A stretch of 64,000 nt of DNA, taken from contig NZ_JACHBD010000016.1 in the NCBI RefSeq assembly GCF_014200175.1, positions 1-64,000 on the forward strand. Reading direction: 5' to 3'. Under the pieces are notes generated by a model. That model saw nothing but the letters and a program-made list of their open reading frames with translations. It was not told the DNA's origin and ran no database searches. Position 1 is the stretch's first letter. Each line of letters opens with the position of its first letter. The position numbers and the translations under genes were made by a program. This DNA comes from Rhizobium lentis (GTDB lineage Bacteria > Pseudomonadota > Alphaproteobacteria > Rhizobiales > Rhizobiaceae). Below, piece after piece: positions 4,771 through 59,393 of the stretch.

Positions 4771-5358
4771 TTGCCGAAAGTTGGAATGGAGCCGGTGCGC
4801 CGCAAGGCGCTTCTCGACGCGGCGCTGCGGGTGATCGGCGATCACGGCTCGCTTGCCGTCACAATGTCCGACATCGCCCGCCAGGCCGGCGTGTCGCCGG
4901 CCCTTGCCCATCATTATTTCGGCAGTAAGGAGCAGTTGCTGATCGAGACGATCCGCTCGCTGTTGCGGCAACTGCGCCGCGATACGGTGGCGGCCCTGAA
5001 GGCGGCGCGGACGCCGCGCGAGCGGCTGTCGGCCGTCATCCGCGTCAGCTTCCATGCCGACCAGTTCGCGCCCGACACGATCGCCGCATGGCTTGCTTTC
5101 TATGCCGAGGCGCAGCGCTCGGAAGAGACGCGCCGCTTCCTGGTGATCTACGCCGGCCGCCTGCGCTCCAACCTGCTTGTCGATCTCAAGGCGCTGCTGC
5201 CGACCGATGCCGCAGAACGCGCCGCCGAAGGCGCTGCGGCGATGATCGACGGGCTCTATATCAGGCAAAGTCTGAAATCGGCGCCGATCGGCATCGCAGC
5301 CTCGATCGCGCTGACGGAGGATTATTTGAACGCGCTTCTATCCACCCCCGCCCCCTAA
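4771..5358 (+). CDS. betI: Choline-responsive TetR repressor BetI
   Basis: A 195-residue TetR-family repressor. The N terminus [19 protein letters not shown] aligns with the canonical BetI start, followed by the helix-turn-helix [20 protein letters not shown] and the C-terminal choline-binding TetR domain. The chosen TTG start at 4771 gives the family length and has a TAGGAG ribosome binding site eight bases upstream; the longer open frame from 4657 would run through the operator. It is the first gene of betI-betB-betA, ending 11 bases before betB. BetI represses the bet genes until choline is present. Confidence 0.93.
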
Positions 5359-5369
5359 GGACAAATGAC

Positions 5370-6833
5370 ATGAAAGCCCAGCCGAAAGCCTCGCACTTCA
5401 TCGATGGCGAATATGTCGAGGATAGCGACGGCGCCGTCATCGAGAGCCTCTATCCCGCCACCGGCGAAGTGATCGCCCGGCTGCATGCCGCAACGCCTGC
5501 GATCGTCGAGAAGGCGATCGCCGCGGCCAAGCGCGCCCAGCCGGAATGGGCCGCGATGAGCCCTATGGCGCGCGGCCGCATCTTGAAGCGCGCCGCCGAG
5601 ATCATGCGCGAGCGCAACCGCGAGCTCTCCGAACTGGAAACGCTCGACACCGGCAAGCCGATCCAGGAGACGATCGTCGCCGATCCGACCTCGGGCGCCG
5701 ATGCCTTCGAATTCTTCGGCGGCGTCGCGCCGGCCGGGCTTAACGGTTCCCATATCCCGCTCGGCCAGGATTTCGCCTATACCAAGCGGGTGCCGCTCGG
5801 CGTCTGCGTCGGCATCGGCGCCTGGAACTATCCGCAGCAGATCGCCTGCTGGAAAGCTGCCCCGGCGCTGATCTCAGGCAATGCCATGGTCTTCAAGCCC
5901 TCGGAAAACACCCCGCTCGGCGCCTTGAAGATCGCCGAAATCCTGCATGAGGCGGGGCTACCGAAGGGGCTCTTCAACGTCATCCAGGGCGACCGCGACA
6001 CCGGGCCGCTGCTCGTCAACCATCCCGACGTCGCCAAGGTGTCACTGACCGGATCAGTGCCCACCGGGCGCCGGGTGGCGGCGGCTGCCGCCGGCAACCT
6101 CAAGCATGTGACGATGGAACTCGGCGGCAAGTCGCCGCTCATCGTCTTCGATGACGCCGATCTCGATTCGGCGGTCGGCGGGGCCATGCTCGGCAATTTC
6201 TATTCGACCGGCCAGGTCTGCTCGAACGGCACGCGCGTCTTCGTACAGAAGGGTATCAAGGTGGAGTTCCTGAAGCGGTTGAAGGCGCGCACCGAGGCGA
6301 TGCGGATCGGCGACCCGATGGACGAGGCGACGCAGATCGGGCCAATGGTTTCCTGGGCGCAGCGCGAGAAGGTGATCGCCTATATCGAAAAGGGCAAGGC
6401 CGAGGGCGCCACGCTGATTGCCGGCGGCGGCATTCCGAACAACGTCTCCGGCGAAGGCTACTACGTGCAGCCGACCGTCTTTGCCGACGTCACCGACGAG
6501 ATGACCATCGCCCGCGAGGAGATCTTCGGGCCTGTGATGTCGGTGCTCGATTTCGACGAGGAGGACGAGGTGATCACCCGCGCCAATGCCAGCGAATTCG
6601 GCCTCTCCGGCGGCGTCTTCACCGCCGACCTCACCCGCGCCCACCGCGTCGTCGACCGGCTGGAGGCCGGCACGCTCTGGATCAATACCTATAATCTCTG
6701 CCCGGTGGAAATCCCCTTCGGCGGCTCGAAACAATCCGGCTTCGGCCGGGAGAATTCGCTGGCGGCGCTGGAGCATTATTCCGAACTGAAGACGGTTTAC
6801 GTCGGCATGGGGCCGGTGCAGGCGCCTTATTGA
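5370..6833 (+). CDS. betB: Betaine aldehyde dehydrogenase
   Basis: A 487-residue NAD(P)-dependent aldehyde dehydrogenase oxidising betaine aldehyde to glycine betaine, the second step of osmoprotectant synthesis from choline. The ALDH catalytic glutamate motif MELGGKSPL and the nucleophile cysteine in GQVCSNGTR are intact, and the Rossmann region includes [11 protein letters not shown]. The segment [18 protein letters not shown] near the C terminus is typical of BetB. The ATG at 5370 gives the correct family length; an upstream in-frame extension overlaps betI in another frame and is not used. Confidence 0.96.
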
Positions 6834-7032: not shown

Positions 7033-8685
7033 ATGCAACAAGCAGATTTCGTCATCATCGGCTCGGGCTCGGCGGGGTCCGCCCTCGCCTATCGCCTCTC
7101 CGAAGACGGCAAGAATTCCGTCATCGTCATCGAGGCGGGCGGCAGCGATTTCGGGCCGTTCATCCAGATGCCGGCGGCCCTTGCCTGGCCTATGAGCATG
7201 AAGCGCTACAATTGGGGCTATCTCTCCGAGCCGGAGCCCAACCTCAACAACCGGCGCATCACCGCGCCGCGCGGCAAGGTGATCGGCGGCTCCTCCTCGA
7301 TCAACGGCATGGTCTATGTTCGCGGCCATGCGGAGGACTTCAACCGCTGGGAGGAGCTCGGCGCCAGCGGCTGGGCCTATGCCGACGTTCTGCCCTATTT
7401 CAAGCGGATGGAGCATTCGCATGGCGGCGAGGAAGGCTGGCGCGGTACCGACGGGCCGCTGCATGTCCAGCGCGGCGGCTTCACCAATCCACTGTTTCGC
7501 GCCTTCATCGAAGCCGGCAAACAAGCCGGCTTCGAGACGACCGAGGATTATAACGGCAGCAAGCAGGAAGGCTTCGGACTGATGGAGCAGACCATCTTTG
7601 CCGGCCGCCGCTGGTCTGCCGCCAATGCCTATCTGAAACCGGCGCTGAAGCGGGACAATGTCGGGATCGTCTACGGCCTGGCGCGCAAGATCGTCATCGA
7701 GGACGGGCGGGCGACCGGCGTCGAAATCGAACGCGGCGGCAGGATCGAGGTCGTCAAGGCGAACCGCGAGGTGATCGTCTCGGCCTCCTCCTTCAATTCG
7801 CCGAAGCTTTTGATGCTGTCGGGCATTGGCCCGGCTGCGCATCTGAAAGAGATGGGCATCGCGGTGAAAGCCGATAGGCCGGGCGTCGGCGCCAATCTGC
7901 AGGACCATATGGAATTCTACTTCCAGCAGGTGAGCACCAAGCCGGTGTCGCTCTATTCCTGGCTGCCGTGGTTCTGGCAGGGGGTGGCGGGCGCGCAATG
8001 GCTGCTGTCGAAGGGCGGGCTCGGCGCCTCCAACCAGTTCGAGGCCTGCGCCTTCCTACGCTCGGCACCCGGGCTGAAACAGCCCGATATTCAGTATCAT
8101 TTCCTCCCCGTTGCGATCAGCTATGACGGCAAGGCGGCGGCGAAAAGCCATGGCTTCCAGGTGCATGTCGGCTATAACCTGTCGAAATCGCGCGGCAACG
8201 TGACGCTGCGCTCGCCCGACCCGAAGGCCGAGCCGGTGCTGCGCTTCAACTATATGAGCCATCCGGAGGATTGGGAAAAATTCCGCCACTGCGTCCGCCT
8301 GACCCGCGAGATCTTCGGGCAGACCGCCTTCGACGCCTATCGCGGCCCGGAGATCCAGCCGGGTGAAGGCGTGCAAAGCGACGAAGAGATCGATGCCTTC
8401 CTGCGCGAGCATCTGGAAAGCGCCTATCACCCCTGCGGAACCTGCAAGATGGGCGCCAAGGACGATCCGATGGCGGTGGTCGATCCGCAGACGCGGGTGA
8501 TCGGCGTCGAGGCCTTGCGCGTCGCCGACAGCTCGATCTTCCCGCATGTCACCTACGGCAATCTGAACGGCCCCTCGATCATGACCGGCGAGAAGGCCGC
8601 CGACCACATCCTCGGCAAACAGCCGCTGGCGCGCTCGAACCAGGAACCCTGGGTCAATCCAAGGGCGGCCGTCAGCGACCGGTGA
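7033..8685 (+). CDS. betA: Choline dehydrogenase (GMC oxidoreductase)
   Basis: A 550-residue FAD-dependent GMC oxidoreductase converting choline to betaine aldehyde, using the respiratory chain as acceptor. The N-terminal FAD motif [19 protein letters not shown] is followed by GMC signature 1 ([19 protein letters not shown]) and signature 2 ([18 protein letters not shown]). The C-terminal active-site residues lie in HPCGTCKMG and GNLNGPSIM. An AAGGGA ribosome binding site precedes the ATG. It closes the bet cluster; betB acts on its product. Confidence 0.96.
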
Positions 8686-45904: not shown

Positions 45905-45950
45905 GCGCGTCTCTGGCCGCGCGTTCGGCGAAATCGCAGCTCTCTAACCT

Positions 45951-47556
45951 CCGTCACTACATGCCTCGAGCCTGGAATCCATGGCCACCGCCGAGGGGCC
46001 AGCATGGGTCCTCGGGTCAAGCCCGAGGACGACGGAAGTGTGGTGAACTCCGTGGCAAATCCAGCGATGGTGAGGCAGCAGCAGCCTTGCGCCTCTTGCC
46101 GATGGCCCTCCACAACCTCCGTCATTCCAGGCCCTGAGCCTGGAATCCATAGCCGCTGCCGAGGGGCCGGCGTGGGTCCTCGGGTCAAGCCCGAGGACGA
46201 CGGAGGGTGGGGTGAACTCCGCGACAAATCCAGGGATGGTGAGGCAATAACAGCAGCGTTGCGCCTCTTGCAGGTCGCCGTCCGCAACCTCCGTTGGGCC
46301 TCCTGCCGATGACCCTCCCCAACCTCCGTCATTCCAGGCCTTGAGCCTGGAATCCATGACCACAGCCGAGCGGCCGGCGTGGGTCCTCGGGTCAAGCCCG
46401 AGGACGACGGAGTGGGGTGAGCTCCGCGACAAATCCAGGGATGGTGAGGCAATAACAGCAGCGTTGCGCCTCTTGCAGGTCGCCGTCCGCAACCTCCGTT
46501 GGGCCTCCTGCCGATGGCCCTCCACAACCTCCGTCCCAGGCCTTGAGCCTGGAATCCATGGCCGCAGCCGAGGAGCCGGCGTGGGTCCTCGGGTCAAGCC
46601 TGAGAATGACGGAGGGTTGGGTGGGCTCCGTGGCAAATCCAGCGGTGGTTGAGCGAATAGCAGCGGGTTGCGCCACTTGCAGATCGCCCTCCCCAACCTT
46701 CGTCATTCCAGACCTTGGGCCTGGAATCCATGGCCACCGCCGAGGGGCCAGCATGGGTCCTCGGGTCAAGCCCGAGGACGACGGAGGGTGGGGTGGGCTC
46801 CGTGGCAAATCCAGCGGTGGTGAGGAAATAGCAGCGGCGTTGCGCCTCTTGCAGGTCGCCGTCCGCAACCTCCGTTGGGCCTCCTGCCGATGGCCCTCCC
46901 CAACCTCCGTCATTCCAGGCCTTGAGCCTGGAATCCATGACCACAGCCGAGCGGCCGGCGTGGGTCCTCGGGTCAAGCCCGAGGACGACGGAGGGTGGGG
47001 TGGGCTCCGTGGCAAATCCAGCGATGGTGAGGCAATAGCAGCAGCGTTGCGCCTCTTGCCGATGGCCCTCCACAACCTCCGTCATTCCAGGCCCTGAGCC
47101 TGGAACCCATAGCCGCAGCCGAGGGGCCGGCATGGGTCCTCGGGTCAAGCCCGAGGACGACGGAGGGTGGGGTGAGCTCCGCGACAAAATGGTGAGGCAA
47201 TAACAGCAGCGTTGCGCCTCTTGCAGGTCGCCGTCCGCAACCTCCGTTGGGCCTCCTGCTGATGGCCCTCCCCAACCTCCGTCATTCCAGGCCTTGAGCC
47301 TGGAATCCATGACCACAGCCGAGCGGCCGGCGTGGGTCCTCGGATCAAGCCCGAGGACGACGGAGGGTGGGGTGAGCTCCGCGACAGAGGCAATAACAGC
47401 AGCGTTGCGCCTCTTGCAGGTCGCCGTCCGCAACCTCCGTTGGGCCTCCTGCCGATGGCCCTCCACAACCTCCGTCATTCCAGGCCCTGAGCCTGGAATC
47501 CATGGCCGCTGTCGAGGAGCCGGCGTGGGTCCTCGGGTCAAGCCTGAGGATGACGG
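45951..47556. repeat. Tandem array of nine RIME-like palindromic elements
   Basis: Nine copies of an about 85-base element start at 45951, 46119, 46326, 46531, 46700, 46907, 47079, 47279 and 47472. Each begins CCGTC, has a first hairpin TTCCAGGCCTTGAGCCTGGA, a second hairpin GTCCTCGGGTC-AAGCCCGAGGAC, and ends GACGG. Spacers come in two related lengths (about 83-87 and 108-122 bases) in the order A B B A B A B B. All share AAATCCAGCGATGGTGAGGC and TTGCGCCTCTTGC words, so element plus spacer was amplified together. Copy 1 is most decayed. The arrangement resembles rhizobial RIME elements, which are normally single dispersed copies. Confidence 0.9.
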
Positions 47557-47557
47557 A

Positions 47558-47654
47558 GGCCGCTGCACTTCCTTATGCAACCGCCGCCGAGTTCCGGCTT
47601 ATTTACGGACGGCTTGAAGAACTGGATGTGTGGCGAAACCCGTTCTCAGTCTGA
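47558..47654 (+). pseudogene. Decayed 3' end of a second GST gene
   Basis: After the last repeat the sequence matches the end of the GST gene at 43800-43929: CTGCACTTCCTTATGCAACC and GGCTTGAAGAACTGGATG, to the shared CGAAACCC and a TGA stop at 47652-47654. About 35 bases are missing from the middle. The rest of the gene is absent; repeats abut it directly. Confidence 0.75.
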
Positions 47655-54808: not shown

Positions 54809-54959
54809 GACTTGCTCCCGTCGTCTCCCCTCCCATTCGGGAGGATTGCTTGCCATAAACTAGTCGCGTGACCGTAAATGACAAACGGTCTGGTCGTCAG
54901 CAACGCAATCGGCAAACAGCGCGGCAAGGCGAAGTATGGCAGCAACGGCACCCCACCCT

Positions 54960-55044
54960 CCGTCATCCCAGGCCTTGAGCCTGGGATCCACGGCCGCAAT
55001 GGACGAGGCCGGCATGGGTCCTCGGGTCAAGCCCGAGGACGACG
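54960..55044. repeat. RIME-like element (dispersed copy)
   Basis: CCGTCATCCCAGGCCTTGAG then CCTGGGATCC, and GGTCCTCGGGTCAAGCCCGA then GACGACG, give the same two-palindrome element as in the 46-47.6 kb array, here as a single copy 38 bases from the methyltransferase stop. Confidence 0.75.
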
Positions 55045-55082
55045 AGTGGGTGGAAGTCCGGCGCCCTCAGCCGCCGGTCTGG

Positions 55083-56159
55083 TCAGAGGCGGGCTTCGAG
55101 GATCAGGTTGAAGGGCGTCTGCATTGCCTTGCGGAAGCGGGTGAAGCCCGCCTTGCGGAAGACGTCCTTGAGCCTTGCCTCGCCGGCCTGGGCGCCGAGC
55201 ACGATGTGACCGCCATCGGAAATCGCATGGGCGCAGCAAATCGTCGTCGACGCGGCATAATAGAGCCGGCCGACAGGCGAGATATTGTCCTCCACCCGGT
55301 CATTGGCGAAGGGCTCGACCAGCATCACCGTGCCGTCCTTGGCAAGGGCCTTGGCCGCATGCGTGGCGGCTGCCACCGGATTGCCCATGTCGTGCAGGCA
55401 GTCGAAGAAGCAGATAAGGTCATAGCCCGTCCCCGGATAGGTATCCGCCCGCGCCGTCGAAAAGCTCGCGCGATCGGAAACGCCCGCCTCGCCCGCCACC
55501 TCTCGTGCTTCGTCGACCGACTTTTCGTGCGTGTCGAAGCCGTGGAATTTCGACTTCGGGAAGGCCTGCGCCATCAGCACCGTCGAATGGCCGTGGCCGC
55601 AGCCGACATCGGCGACCAGCGCGCCAGCCTTCAGCTTCTCCACCACGCCGTCGAGCGCGGGCAGCCATTCCGGCACGAGGCTGGCGCGGTAGGCGTTGCG
55701 GTAGAAGGAAGCGACGCCGCAGAAGAGCCGGCCATCATGGTCACCCCAAGGGATGCCGGCGCCGGTGCGGAAGGCCTCGACCGCCTTGTCCTCGTCGGCC
55801 CACATGGAAGCCGGCGTTGCCCAGGCATTCGGGATGAAGACGGGGCTGTCCTCGTTCGCCAGCACGAAAGCCTGTTCAGGCGTCAGCTCATAGGTGCCGC
55901 TGACGGCATGATAGGTGACATAGCCGCCGGCGACCTGCGAATTCAGCCATTCGCGCACATATCGTTCGGCGCAGCGGGCGCGGGTGGCGATCTCGCGAGA
56001 CGTGAGCGGACCGCGGTCGGCCATCGTCTTGTAGAGACCGAGGCGGTGGCCGAGGCTGACCATGACCCCGCCATAGCCGGCGGAAAGATCGCTGACGACG
56101 CGGCCGACCAGCGTGTCGAGCTTCGCACTGTCGATGGCCTTGCTTTGCATGGTATCCAT
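55083..56159 (-). CDS. Class I SAM-dependent methyltransferase
   Basis: A 358-residue methyltransferase. The N-terminal winged-helix-like region (about 1-100, REIATRARCAERYVREWLNS) is followed by a Rossmann domain with motif I VADVGCGHGHSTVLMA. Motifs ICFFDCLHDMGNP and VMLVEPFANDRVEDN follow. This arrangement is like the O- or small-molecule methyltransferases related to Rv2258c. GGGAGAA precedes the ATG at 56159. It is divergent from the GlxA-type regulator (181 bases away), a possible regulator. Confidence 0.88.
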   Translation of the reverse strand: MDTMQSKAIDSAKLDTLVGRVVSDLSAGYGGVMVSLGHRLGLYKTMADRGPLTSREIATRARCAERYVREWLNSQVAGGYVTYHAVSGTYELTPEQAFVLANEDSPVFIPNAWATPASMWADEDKAVEAFRTGAGIPWGDHDGRLFCGVASFYRNAYRASLVPEWLPALDGVVEKLKAGALVADVGCGHGHSTVLMAQAFPKSKFHGFDTHEKSVDEAREVAGEAGVSDRASFSTARADTYPGTGYDLICFFDCLHDMGNPVAAATHAAKALAKDGTVMLVEPFANDRVEDNISPVGRLYYAASTTICCAHAISDGGHIVLGAQAGEARLKDVFRKAGFTRFRKAMQTPFNLILEARL

Positions 56160-56340
56160 GATGTTTCTCCCTGGTTGCAAACCTCCGTTCGAGGTCGAGG
56201 GAAGGATCGCAGACCGGGAGCGTGAGCGGCAGAGCGGTGCCGGCCATGATCGGGCCATTTGCGCCACGCAAGGGAAGCTGTCGCGTCCGCAGTGGCCCCG
56301 GCTGCGCTCCGGGGTTATCATTGCTGCCAAGGGGGAACCG

Positions 56341-57405
56341 ATGATGACGGGAACGCAGCAGGAGGCGGAGGGGGCGCCGGGGCCGCAGCCGCTCCATGTC
56401 AGCCTGGTGGCGCTGCCGGAGGCGGCAGTCTCGACGCTGAGCGGCATCTTTGATGTCATGAACGCCTTTTCCATCGTACCGCCGGACGACGGCATTGCGA
56501 AGACGCCTCCTTTCCACGTCGAAATCGTTGGCGAACGGGCCGGCCCGCTGACGCTCGCCAGCCGCGTGCCGCTGGTGGTGCAGCGGCCGGTCGCCGAAAT
56601 CGAGCGGACCGACATCGTCATCGTGCCGTCGGTCGTGCTCGGGCCGGAAGGTTGGGTGAAGCGCCGCTATCCCGAACTGGTGGATTGGTGCCGGAGGATG
56701 CACGTGAGGGGGGCACTGATCTGCTCGGCCTGTTCGGGCATCTTCCTGCTTGCCGAGACCGGGGTCTTCGATGGCGCCGACGCCACCGTCCATTTCGGCT
56801 ATGCCCAGACGTTCCGCGACGCCTATCCTGAGGTTCCGATCCATCCGGAGCAGGTGCTGGTGGTCGCCGGCCGGCGGGACGAGCTGATTACATCAGGCGC
56901 CTCGATGACATGGCACGATCTCGTGCTCTACCTGATCGCCCGCCATGCGGGGGCGACGGCGGCGCAGACGGTGGCCCGCTATTTTGCCCTGCAATGGCAC
57001 CAGGACGGGCTGGCTCCCTACATGGTGTTCGAGGGGCGGCGCGACCACGGCGACCAGGCGATCCAGACTGCACAGGACTGGCTTGCCGTCCATTTTTCGG
57101 TCGCCAATCCGCTGGAGGAGATGGTCAGGCAGGCGGGGCTGACGGAACGGACCTTCAAACGGCGGTTCACCCGGGCGACCGGCCTGAGCCCGATCGCCTA
57201 TGTCCAACGGCTGCGGATCGAGGAAGCGAAGCGGCGGTTGGAGCGAACCGAAGCTTCCGTCGACGAAATAAGCTGGCAGGTCGGCTACGAGGAGCCCGCC
57301 TTCTTTCGGCGCTTGTTCAGGCGGATAACCGGCTTGGCTCCGGGAAACTATCGTCGTCGGTTTCAGGTGCCGGCCTATGCCAAGCGGCCTTCATCGCACG
57401 GCTGA
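56341..57405 (+). CDS. GlxA-type AraC regulator (DJ-1/PfpI plus HTH)
   Basis: A 354-residue transcription factor. The N-terminal DJ-1/PfpI domain contains the conserved ALICSACSGIFLLAE elbow. Two helix-turn-helix motifs of the AraC type follow: MVRQAGLTERTFKRRFTRAT and the last in SVDEISWQVGYEEPAFFRRL. GlxA regulators typically sense small ligands with an inactive amidase fold. AAGGGGGAA precedes the ATG. The divergent methyltransferase may be its target. Confidence 0.9.
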   Translation: MMTGTQQEAEGAPGPQPLHVSLVALPEAAVSTLSGIFDVMNAFSIVPPDDGIAKTPPFHVEIVGERAGPLTLASRVPLVVQRPVAEIERTDIVIVPSVVLGPEGWVKRRYPELVDWCRRMHVRGALICSACSGIFLLAETGVFDGADATVHFGYAQTFRDAYPEVPIHPEQVLVVAGRRDELITSGASMTWHDLVLYLIARHAGATAAQTVARYFALQWHQDGLAPYMVFEGRRDHGDQAIQTAQDWLAVHFSVANPLEEMVRQAGLTERTFKRRFTRATGLSPIAYVQRLRIEEAKRRLERTEASVDEISWQVGYEEPAFFRRLFRRITGLAPGNYRRRFQVPAYAKRPSSHG

Positions 57406-57556: not shown

Positions 57557-57879
57557 CACCTCCTCTCCATTCGGGTAAAAAAGCGTGATCTTGGCGGCGG
57601 CGCCTTCGCCATTGCGAAGCGTCAAAACCGCTTCCGAAGGCGATGCCGTTAGCTCGTCGAGCTTACTCGCTTCATCGGGTCGCGAACACACCTTTCTCCC
57701 TGATATAATCGGCCGAGGCGACGAGCCGGGTGGGATCGTCATGGATCCGGCGCTGGAACTATTCCGCAAACGGGACGGTGCTGGACATGGCAACGGAGAT
57801 ATTTCAGGCGTGTTTGAGCTGATCCGGAGCAGGCGCAGGAGCAGCGCTGTCAGCTGAAGGGCTGACCGGCCATCCCGAA

Positions 57880-58042
57880 ATAGAAAAGCCTGCCGCGGGA
57901 GGAGGTGCGGCAGGCTTTCCTAAAAGAACCGAACAGCGACTTGGGAGGAGGAGTGCCGCTGTTCCAACAGACGTCCCTTCGGGAGGAGGAGTGGACGTCT
58001 GAATTTCGAAGCGTTGCGGGAGGAGGAGCATCGCTTCGATAG
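57880..58042 (-). ncRNA. alpha-r14/NfeR1-like ('cuckoo') small RNA with four anti-SD hairpins
   Basis: On the minus strand four stem-loops follow each other: stems TCGAAGCG, CAGACGTCC, GAACAGCG and GCCTGCCGC, pairing with exact complements at 58007-58040, 57969-58002, 57932-57965 and 57889-57916. Each loop contains CTCCTCCC or ACCTCCTCCC, complementary to the Shine-Dalgarno core. The last stem is GC-rich and followed by TTTTCTATTT, a Rho-independent terminator. A TATGAT -10-like box lies just upstream at 58049-58054. This matches alphaproteobacterial sRNAs with repeated anti-SD loops (alpha-r14, NfeR1 in Sinorhizobium meliloti; CcsR/cuckoo elsewhere), which repress translation of mRNAs by pairing to SD regions. 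It could be one or two transcripts. Confidence 0.82.
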
Positions 58043-58048
58043 AAATAA

Positions 58049-58054
58049 TCATAC
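58049..58054 (-). promoter_or_regulatory. -10 box of the small RNA
   Basis: TATGAT reads on the minus strand at 58054-58049, seven bases upstream of the first possible transcript base. A -35 is weak (CTGGCG at about 58072-58077). Confidence 0.4.
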
Positions 58055-58298
58055 TCGCACCAGCGCCATCCGCCAGCGCCTATGTTGCACTGCAGCTATG
58101 CACCCGCCGCAACTGTCGGCGGGGCGGATAGGCATTCCTGCTCCTATTCTGTTGGCTGTTTTGCCGCTCCCCATGGAATTTTCGGTGCCTTCAAGGACTC
58201 GGATAAATTGGGCGAATTAACCCGGGAGTCCCATTGTGCGGCGCAGCAATCGTCCCCACATCGAGAGTTGAGGCCGATTGGCGGCCAAGGAGACGACA

Positions 58299-59393
58299 TT
58301 GCTCGACAAGCCCCCACAAAATCACCGCTTGGTCGAAATCGGGAGGTTTGGCTCCAATCCGGGGTCATTAAAGGGGTGGCTATATCTGCCGTCGATCATG
58401 GCCCCCGGCACCCCGCTTGTCGTTGCGCTGCATGGCTGCACACAGACGGCAGAGGGCTACGCCGCAGGTTCCGGCTGGTCGCAACTCGCCGAGCGGCGCG
58501 GATTTGCGGTGCTCTATCCCGAGCAACAGCGCTCGAACAATGCCAATCTCTGCTTCAACTGGTTCGAGCCCGGCGACATCAGCCGGGATGCGGGGGAGGC
58601 ATTGTCCATCCGGCAGATGATCGGCCATCTCGTCCAGTCGCAGGGCATCGATCCGAAGCGCATCTTCATCACAGGCCTGTCGGCAGGCGGTGCGATGGCG
58701 AACGTCATGCTGTCGACCTACCCTGAGATATTTGCAGGCGGCGCCATCATCGGCGGGCTGCCCTATGGCGTGGCAGGCACCGTGGCAGAGGCTTTCCAGC
58801 GCATGCAAGGCCGCAATCCGCCGACTGTCCCCAGGCTCCAATCGGTTCTCAAGCGCGCCTCGAACCACCGCGGGCCCTGGCCTAGGATTTCGATCTGGCA
58901 CGGCACGCATGACCAGACGGTCCGAGCCAGGAATGCCGAACAGATCGCCCAGCAATGGAGCGGCGTGCACTCCCTTGCCATCGAGCCAACGCGGAGCGAG
59001 TTGATACACGGCCATAGGCGCAAAGTCTGGCTCGACGCGAAAGGCATGGAGGCCGTCGAGATCTATCTCGTCAAGGGCATGGGCCACGGCGTTCCCCTGG
59101 CGACGAGCGGCGATCGCGCCATCGGGAGAGCCGGCCCGCATATGCTCGAGGCGGGGATTTCCTCGACCGTTCGTATCGCACATGCATGGAATCTGGCGAC
59201 GGAAGCAGACGTCGAGGAGGCTGAGGCAGGCGGAAATTTCGCCCGCCGGGAAGAGCCCGACGCCGCTCCATCCACGATAGATAGAGCATTGCGCTACGCC
59301 AGGTCGCGCGCCAACGCCGCCAGCGCCGCCCCCGACGGCAAGATCGCCAAGGTCATAAACGACGCGCTCCGAGCGGCGGGGCTGATGCGATAG
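58299..59393 (+). CDS. PHB-depolymerase-family esterase
   Basis: A 364-residue alpha/beta hydrolase of the PHB depolymerase/Est type. VVALHGCTQTAEGYAAGSGW is the oxyanion region, GLSAGGAMANVMLSTYPEIF holds the nucleophile serine, WHGTHDQTV the acid and VKGMGHGVPL the histidine. Substrates may be short polyhydroxyalkanoate esters or feruloyl esters. TTG at 58299, six bases after AAGGAG, is preferred; TTG at 58278 is an alternative. It lacks a signal peptide, so it may be intracellular. Confidence 0.88.
   Translation: MLDKPPQNHRLVEIGRFGSNPGSLKGWLYLPSIMAPGTPLVVALHGCTQTAEGYAAGSGWSQLAERRGFAVLYPEQQRSNNANLCFNWFEPGDISRDAGEALSIRQMIGHLVQSQGIDPKRIFITGLSAGGAMANVMLSTYPEIFAGGAIIGGLPYGVAGTVAEAFQRMQGRNPPTVPRLQSVLKRASNHRGPWPRISIWHGTHDQTVRARNAEQIAQQWSGVHSLAIEPTRSELIHGHRRKVWLDAKGMEAVEIYLVKGMGHGVPLATSGDRAIGRAGPHMLEAGISSTVRIAHAWNLATEADVEEAEAGGNFARREEPDAAPSTIDRALRYARSRANAASAAPDGKIAKVINDALRAAGLMR

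Follow-up and report, generated by a model that had tools for sequence, protein, structure and literature searches.

Position 58 kb of a 64,000-nucleotide stretch of Rhizobium lentis DNA (the window, which is the whole stretch analyzed) carries a row of hairpins with anti-Shine-Dalgarno (aSD) loops. A preliminary description, made from the letters of the sequence, had assigned it to small RNAs of the alpha-r14/NfeR1 (cuckoo) kind. The locus raises the questions of which RNA is encoded there, whether four loops stand for one longer RNA or for two tandem ones, and whether the RNA has a connection to the betIBA genes in the same window.

Four consecutive hairpins on the minus strand

Both the sequence and the MFE fold give four consecutive hairpins on the minus strand in 57881-58040, with loop regions 1 to 3 reading CUCCUCCUCCC and loop 4 reading ACCUCCUCCC. 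Table 1 lists the features of the locus. The predicted fold of 57878-58046 (minus strand) reached -76.9 kcal/mol, compared with -41.8 +/- 4.2 kcal/mol for 200 dinucleotide shuffles (z = -8.4), and none of the shuffles (0/200) was equally stable. The motif CTCCTCC has 19 matches in the 64-kb window, 7 of which fall within the four-hairpin stretch, all on the minus strand. While the four hairpins with aSD loops were found as described, the stems are not all perfect, since the stem of hairpin 1 contains one A/A mismatch. The predicted fold pairs the motif's first C in hairpin 1 and places two bases of the hairpin 2 loop in a weak 2-bp helix. A TTCTTTT linker is present at hairpin 3 in several homologous arrays.

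Hairpin 4 is a GC-rich, terminator-like stem followed by the T-rich tail TTTTCTATTT. The tail is restricted to the minus strand, and the plus strand has no such tail, in agreement with the preliminary description. This tail and the minus-strand match to the ar14 family (see below) predict that the minus strand is the RNA strand. A simple consensus scanner called no sigma-70 promoter and no terminator in 57600-58400; its terminator rule admits loops of 3-8 nt, and the hairpin 4 loop, at 10 nt, is beyond that rule.

Table 1. Predicted features of the small RNA locus and its upstream region in the window
Feature	Position	Strand	Basis
Four-hairpin sRNA, predicted, ~160 nt, SmelA099 class of alpha-r14/cuckoo	57881..58040	-	Rfam RF02344, R1, SmelA099 alignment
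Hairpin 1 (5'), outside Rfam model, loop region CTCCTCCTCCC	58006..58039	-	MFE fold
Hairpin 2, loop region CTCCTCCTCCC	57968..58001	-	MFE fold
Hairpin 3, loop region CTCCTCCTCCC	57931..57964	-	MFE fold
Hairpin 4, terminator-like stem, loop ACCTCCTCCC	57881..57922	-	MFE fold
T-rich tail TTTTCTATTT	57878..57887	-	Sequence
Putative -10 region TATGATTAT	58045..58053	-	Sequence; not called by consensus scan
Conserved upstream box GCATAGCTGCAGTGC	58087..58101	-	Only match with <=1 mismatch in window; position kept in homologues
LsrB-like T-N11-A box, TGCG-N6-GCAT	58098..58111	-	One mismatch to TGCA-N6-GCAT

The locus belongs to a four-hairpin class by sequence

Using Rfam release 15, we found that ar14 (RF02344) was the sole match over the gathering score in the whole window. 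The covariance search with the alpha-r14 model, which had been proposed as a check, gave 97.3 bits against a gathering score of 58.8, and the match (57881-58007, minus strand) covers the full model from 1 to 123. The ar14 model has three hairpins, which fit hairpins 2-4, and hairpin 1 is additional. Since alpha-r14 is described with three hairpins, each with an aSD loop (PMC10746234), and the RNA in the window has four, we filed it under a four-hairpin sister class.

Such a class has been published. RFMSmelA075 and RFMSmelA099, reported in 2011, have three and four hairpins, respectively, with CCUCCUCCC-like loops, and Reinkensmeier et al. (2011) suggested uniting the two in a single family whose members differ in module number, as described in PMC3927594. 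The cuckoo motif is described as having 2-4 hairpins (PMC4504443). The idea that known relatives carry fewer loops is thus not supported, and the impression of four loops as unusual is corrected. According to PMC2873474 and a table entry in PMC7143759, SmelA099 is a sequenced 160-nt transcript from S. meliloti pSymA (1328175-1328334). The window locus aligned with SmelA099 from end to end, with 80.9% identity over 157 nt, and the SmelA099 stretch of pSymA also folds into four hairpins.

We then scored these loci with R1, a covariance model made from 47 genus sequences (alignment A1). R1 gave 190.7 bits for the window over 57874-58048 and 187.6 bits for the paralogue L004 in the same genome, both of which are in its training set. 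The copy on plasmid p42d, a locus that is not in the training set and resembles the trained row L045, scored 179.3 bits, and SmelA099, which is outside the training set, scored 167.3 bits. The three-hairpin and weaker copies scored 21-93 bits, the three-hairpin SmelA075 stretch being at 71.4 bits. On these sequence comparisons, the locus in the window is assigned as a SmelA099-class copy of the alpha-r14/cuckoo sRNAs and not as the NfeR1 gene itself; the original family assignment was right in kind and has to be narrowed on this point. The locus is very probably a real, conserved sRNA gene which joins a class published in 2011, and four loops are not new.

The RNA in the window and SmelA099 are alike in their four hairpins, CCUCCUCCC-type loops, length (~160 nt predicted in the window, 160 nt listed for SmelA099) and full-length homology. 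They differ in replicon, neighbours and stem sequences, and while the transcript of SmelA099 was sequenced, the RNA in the window is predicted. The likeness to alpha-r14 (RF02344, type member NfeR1) consists of the match over the gathering score, the aSD loops and, if the start is at 58040, an LsrB-like box at about the NfeR1 position; in contrast to NfeR1, the RNA in the window has a fourth hairpin, its LsrB-like box departs from the motif at one position, and the NtrC motif is absent at -101 to -116. With cuckoo RNAs (Reinkensmeier and Giegerich, 2015), compared by the description in PMC4504443, it shares a number of hairpins within 2-4 and a conserved loop motif, with no difference seen. 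Also compared by description, SisA-D of Caulobacter crescentus are four sibling sRNAs with a shared 10-mer anti-Shine-Dalgarno-like motif (PMC12559287). The Rhodobacter RNA RS0680a is described with two hairpins (PMC3927594), compared with four in the window.

Conservation and covariation of the hairpins

A 185-nt sequence of the locus was matched in 143 of the 148 genus genomes at E <= 1e-6, the weakest of these matches possibly being three-hairpin copies. Exactly four aSD hairpins were parsed in 89 of 93 genus loci, a set in which the window is counted twice (as L005 and L040). L124 and L129 parse as three hairpins, with one loop reading CTCCTTCC, which is outside the parser's pattern, and L134 and L148 parse as five, with the fifth beyond the terminator. 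The hairpin counts vary with the parser rules: in the parse used for box spacing, L133 gave one hairpin and L153 two, both being four under the other parse, and L006 gave one and L078 two despite full-model Rfam matches.

For the covariation analysis, 47 sequences with less than 95.5% pairwise identity were chosen from 75 unique ones (A1). The RNAalifold consensus of A1 has 39 pairs. The lack of conserved stems had been named beforehand as evidence against an RNA; the stems were found to be conserved, with 99.0% of the cells in the 47 sequences paired, compared with 34-47% when the structure was slid. Two-sided changes occurred in 12 pairs, compared with 4.9 +/- 1.0 in shuffles (0/500 as high), and the number of further pair types was 31, compared with 28.8 in shuffles (reached by 11/500), in a test whose structure came from A1 itself and whose shuffles take no account of relatedness. 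The two-sided changes were in 5/9 pairs of hairpin 2, 6/10 pairs of hairpin 3 and 1/13 pairs of hairpin 4. Helices 1-2 of A1, which form hairpin 1, were 100% paired in the 47 sequences with no two-sided change, so that the pairing of hairpin 1 rests on conservation.

The mean identity of the loops was higher than that of the stems in hairpin 2 (0.972 versus 0.924) and hairpin 3 (0.975 versus 0.889), and the stem of hairpin 1 (0.991) was about as conserved as its loop (0.974). The loop columns of hairpin 4 were invariant in the 47 A1 sequences; L132 carries 3 extra nt. In four close relatives, the RNA was 96-97% identical and the surrounding collinear block 91-93% identical. However, since the other flank in one of these relatives (L041) was also 96.9% identical, the RNA can only tentatively be called more constrained than its neighbours.

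Upstream region and the predicted 5' end of the RNA

The putative -10 region is located at about the position of TATAGT upstream of SmelA099, and its sequence is common to the paralogue L004. Further upstream lies the conserved box (Table 1), whose consensus is GCA[T/A]-N-GCTGC-NN-TGC. Since 1.18 chance matches are expected in 64 kb at one mismatch, the evidence for this box is its position. The box was found 73-77 nt before the first aSD loop in 28/29 four-hairpin loci of the 185-nt genus search set, in 46/58 of the fetched genus set and in 16/26 of the first family set, and at -74 to the first aSD loop in 24/28 three-hairpin loci of the genus set. It was present in just 38 of the 52 four-hairpin loci of the full family set and in just 6 of the 26 three-hairpin loci of the wider family set. 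Where the box is present, its distance to the first hairpin is constant whatever the hairpin number, which indicates that the fourth, 5'-most hairpin is part of the RNA. Rfam ar14 covered three of the four hairpins in all four SmelA099-class loci scanned (the window, L004, L157 and L188), and the Rfam annotation would therefore give genes of this class a wrong (truncated) 5' end.

If transcription starts at 58040, the LsrB-like box TGCG-N6-GCAT is at -71 to -58, with T-N11-A kept and one mismatch. In the NfeR1 promoter, the reported positions are -72 to -60 for the LsrB motif TGCA-N6-GCAT and -101 to -116 for the NtrC motif TGC-N11-GCA (PMC10746234). The NtrC motif was absent at -101 to -116 in the window, where its nearest matches are at 58086-58102 and 58424-58440.

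Paralogues and genomic context

Six ar14 copies in the source genome exceed the cut-off, and four more matches at E <= 1 are weaker. Four hairpins are present in the copy in the window and in L004, which are 82.6% identical over 172 nt. A DUF1127 domain match lies ~180 nt upstream of L004, and a DUF1127 gene beside such an RNA constitutes the CIN1 locus (PMC10253847). The genome has 10 DUF1127 matches at E <= 0.1, all of them outside contig C16, to which the window belongs, and the copy in the window is an orphan with no DUF1127 neighbour. Its flanking genes, both on the plus strand, encode an AraC-type regulator (56344-57402) and a PHB-depolymerase-type esterase (58278-59390). In the four close relatives, the RNA is collinear with the esterase side, and the other flank was matched in one of the four.

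The four-hairpin class often lies downstream of a DUF1127 gene. When DUF1127 was scored by motif search, not HMM, in fetched flanks of varying length, it was found upstream of 47/58 fetched genus four-hairpin loci, 10/29 of the 185-nt search set and 19/52 four-hairpin loci of the full family set. For three-hairpin loci, the counts were 0/28 in the genus set and 4/26 in the family set. In the CIN1 locus of Rhodobacter sphaeroides, CcsR1-4 lie beside the DUF1127 gene ccaF1 (product CcaF1), as L004 lies beside DUF1127, and are described as cleavage products of a single precursor, which they have in common with the DUF1127 mRNA (PMC10253847), whereas the copy in the window has no DUF1127 neighbour.

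Two further elements of this kind were seen. At L008:1281-1580 (G000:C4, ~272.1-272.4 kb), a DUF1127 gene is followed by one hairpin with a TTCCTCCC loop and then by a terminator-like hairpin; the element lies ~0.5 kb downstream of the three-hairpin ar14 copy L003 and is possibly a minimal single-hairpin form. At L007:1494-1618 (minus strand), there is a weak ar14-like match of 46.1 bits, under the cut-off. On inspection by eye, its loops differ from the aSD motif, and it may be a degenerate copy.

Distribution across genomes

R1 had a match at E <= 1e-8 in 169 of the 199 family genomes. At 110.9 bits or more, there were 56 matches in 26/199 family genomes and 14/109 genera, and the next match was at 104.2 bits. 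A script parsed 52 of the 56 high-scoring loci as four hairpins. The other 4 (L196, L201, L212 and L213) parsed as fewer than four, and each was taken as four arms on reading: L196 and L212 have a changed loop, L213 has a wider last spacing, and L201 has a shifted second motif and was read through hairpin 2, the remainder resting on a full-length R1 match of 155.1 bits. The lower-scoring family loci that were parsed had three hairpins (17/17).

In the order, R1 exceeded 110 bits in only 3/199 genomes, the three of the genus in that sample, a lower bound because R1 was trained on the genus and underestimates distant four-hairpin RNAs. RFMSmelA099 is listed among the models of 2011 with members in several other families (PMC3927594). 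Rfam ar14 was found in 194/199 family genomes at E <= 0.001, with 184 of them over the cut-off.

Copies on plasmids

A four-hairpin copy with 90.8% identity is located on plasmid p42d of R. etli CFN 42 (L157:8001-8247; NC_004041.2, 77555-77801), which we take to be the symbiotic plasmid of R. etli. A copy with the same score is present on 34 further listed plasmid records, hence on at least 35 including p42d; the host or source is Phaseolus vulgaris in 31 of the 35 listed records, and none is given in 4. In the p42d annotation, the match overlaps at its upstream end with a hypothetical protein (RHE_RS29785). The window and p42d are 86.6% identical over 57862-58168, with just ~314 bp in common, and no further match at E <= 1e-5 was found between the stretches compared. 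It is conceivable, if improbable, that the orphan copies in the window and on the plasmids of bean isolates represent a mobile promoter-plus-RNA cassette of ~310 bp which came from a DUF1127-linked locus and through which an accessory replicon would lower translation in its host without the DUF1127 RNA-binding partner. Since the loss of NfeR1 is reported to impair symbiosis in S. meliloti (PMC7143759), the plasmid copies are of possible genetic interest.

Alternative explanations

The preliminary description had also considered two tandem RNAs instead of one four-hairpin RNA, and an Rfam model that spans hairpins 2-4 alone would agree with this. However, hairpins 1 and 2 are just 4 nt apart, the distance from the upstream box to the first loop is equal in three- and four-hairpin arrays, and SmelA099, the best match, is listed as a single 160-nt transcript (PMC2873474). 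With one upstream box, one terminator-like hairpin and a single-transcript homologue, the tandem arrangement is very improbable and was rejected. A coding region was rejected with still greater assurance: an 82-aa ORF (57804-58052) is open on the minus strand over the RNA, but it has no Pfam match at E <= 0.001, the unique homologues (169 to 179 nt) differ in length by steps not divisible by three, and the changes follow base pairing. There is likewise hardly any chance that the locus is a palindromic repeat acting at the DNA level (REP- or RIME-like) without RNA function. While the several dispersed copies per genome would fit such a repeat, hairpins 2 and 3 vary more in their stems than in their loops, the terminator-like end and the upstream box confer an orientation, and a homologous transcript is known (SmelA099; PMC2873474); the repeat was rejected on these grounds.

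The copy in the window could also be a decayed or silent duplicate of the DUF1127-linked RNA, without meaningful expression. S. meliloti has six NfeR1 copies, of which one was reliably detected by Northern blotting (PMC7143759), so that the copy in the window, which has no DUF1127 neighbour and belongs to a genome with six copies over the Rfam cut-off, could be nearly silent; the flank in L041 is also as conserved as the RNA. On the other hand, all four loops are intact, as are the stems, the upstream box and the terminator-like hairpin, the RNA is kept at 96-97% in the four relatives, and S. meliloti transcribes SmelA099, a member of this class (PMC2873474). We consider a silent duplicate unlikely.

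Proposed mode of action

The locus quite likely encodes an orphan SmelA099-class four-hairpin sRNA, with a minus-strand transcript of ~160 nt whose aSD loops would block translation initiation. In this most likely reading, the identity comes from sequence, and what is said of transcription, targets, redundancy and processing is extrapolated from relatives. A sigma-70-type promoter of its own, bearing the LsrB-like box, would drive minus-strand transcription of the RNA from about 58040 to hairpin 4. Each loop would expose, in single-stranded form, a CU-rich stretch complementary to the Shine-Dalgarno sequence and would pair with the translation initiation regions of many mRNAs, thus blocking ribosome binding. 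The four loops are probably redundant and would give a higher effective dose. The RNA may also be processed into shorter species. NfeR1 is described as Hfq-independent, its aSD seeds pairing with the ntrB initiation region and thus silencing ntrBC (PMC10746234). The three aSD motifs of NfeR1 are reported to act redundantly (PMC7143759), and SmelA075 to occur in processed forms (PMC3927594, PMC2873474).

The presence of betIBA in the same window had been taken as a hint of a role in osmoadaptation. Both betB (within 5088-6830) and betA (7033-8682) were confirmed, but they are ~49 kb from the RNA, and the start region of betA paired weakly with one loop (-5.6 kcal/mol) in a crude duplex test. 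This weak test compared one loop with the 25 nt preceding each ORF start, the start codons having been picked in favour of pairing, and gave energies from -2.0 to -18.9 kcal/mol over the listed ORFs. By distance and by crude loop duplex energy, no connection between the RNA and betIBA was found.

Elsewhere in the window, the translations of 45944-47580 and of the start of the ORF at 54936-56225 contain strings like SSSGLTRGPTPAPRQRPWIPGSGPGMT and MGPRVKPEDDE, which we take to be typical of rhizobial intergenic repeats and not of real proteins.
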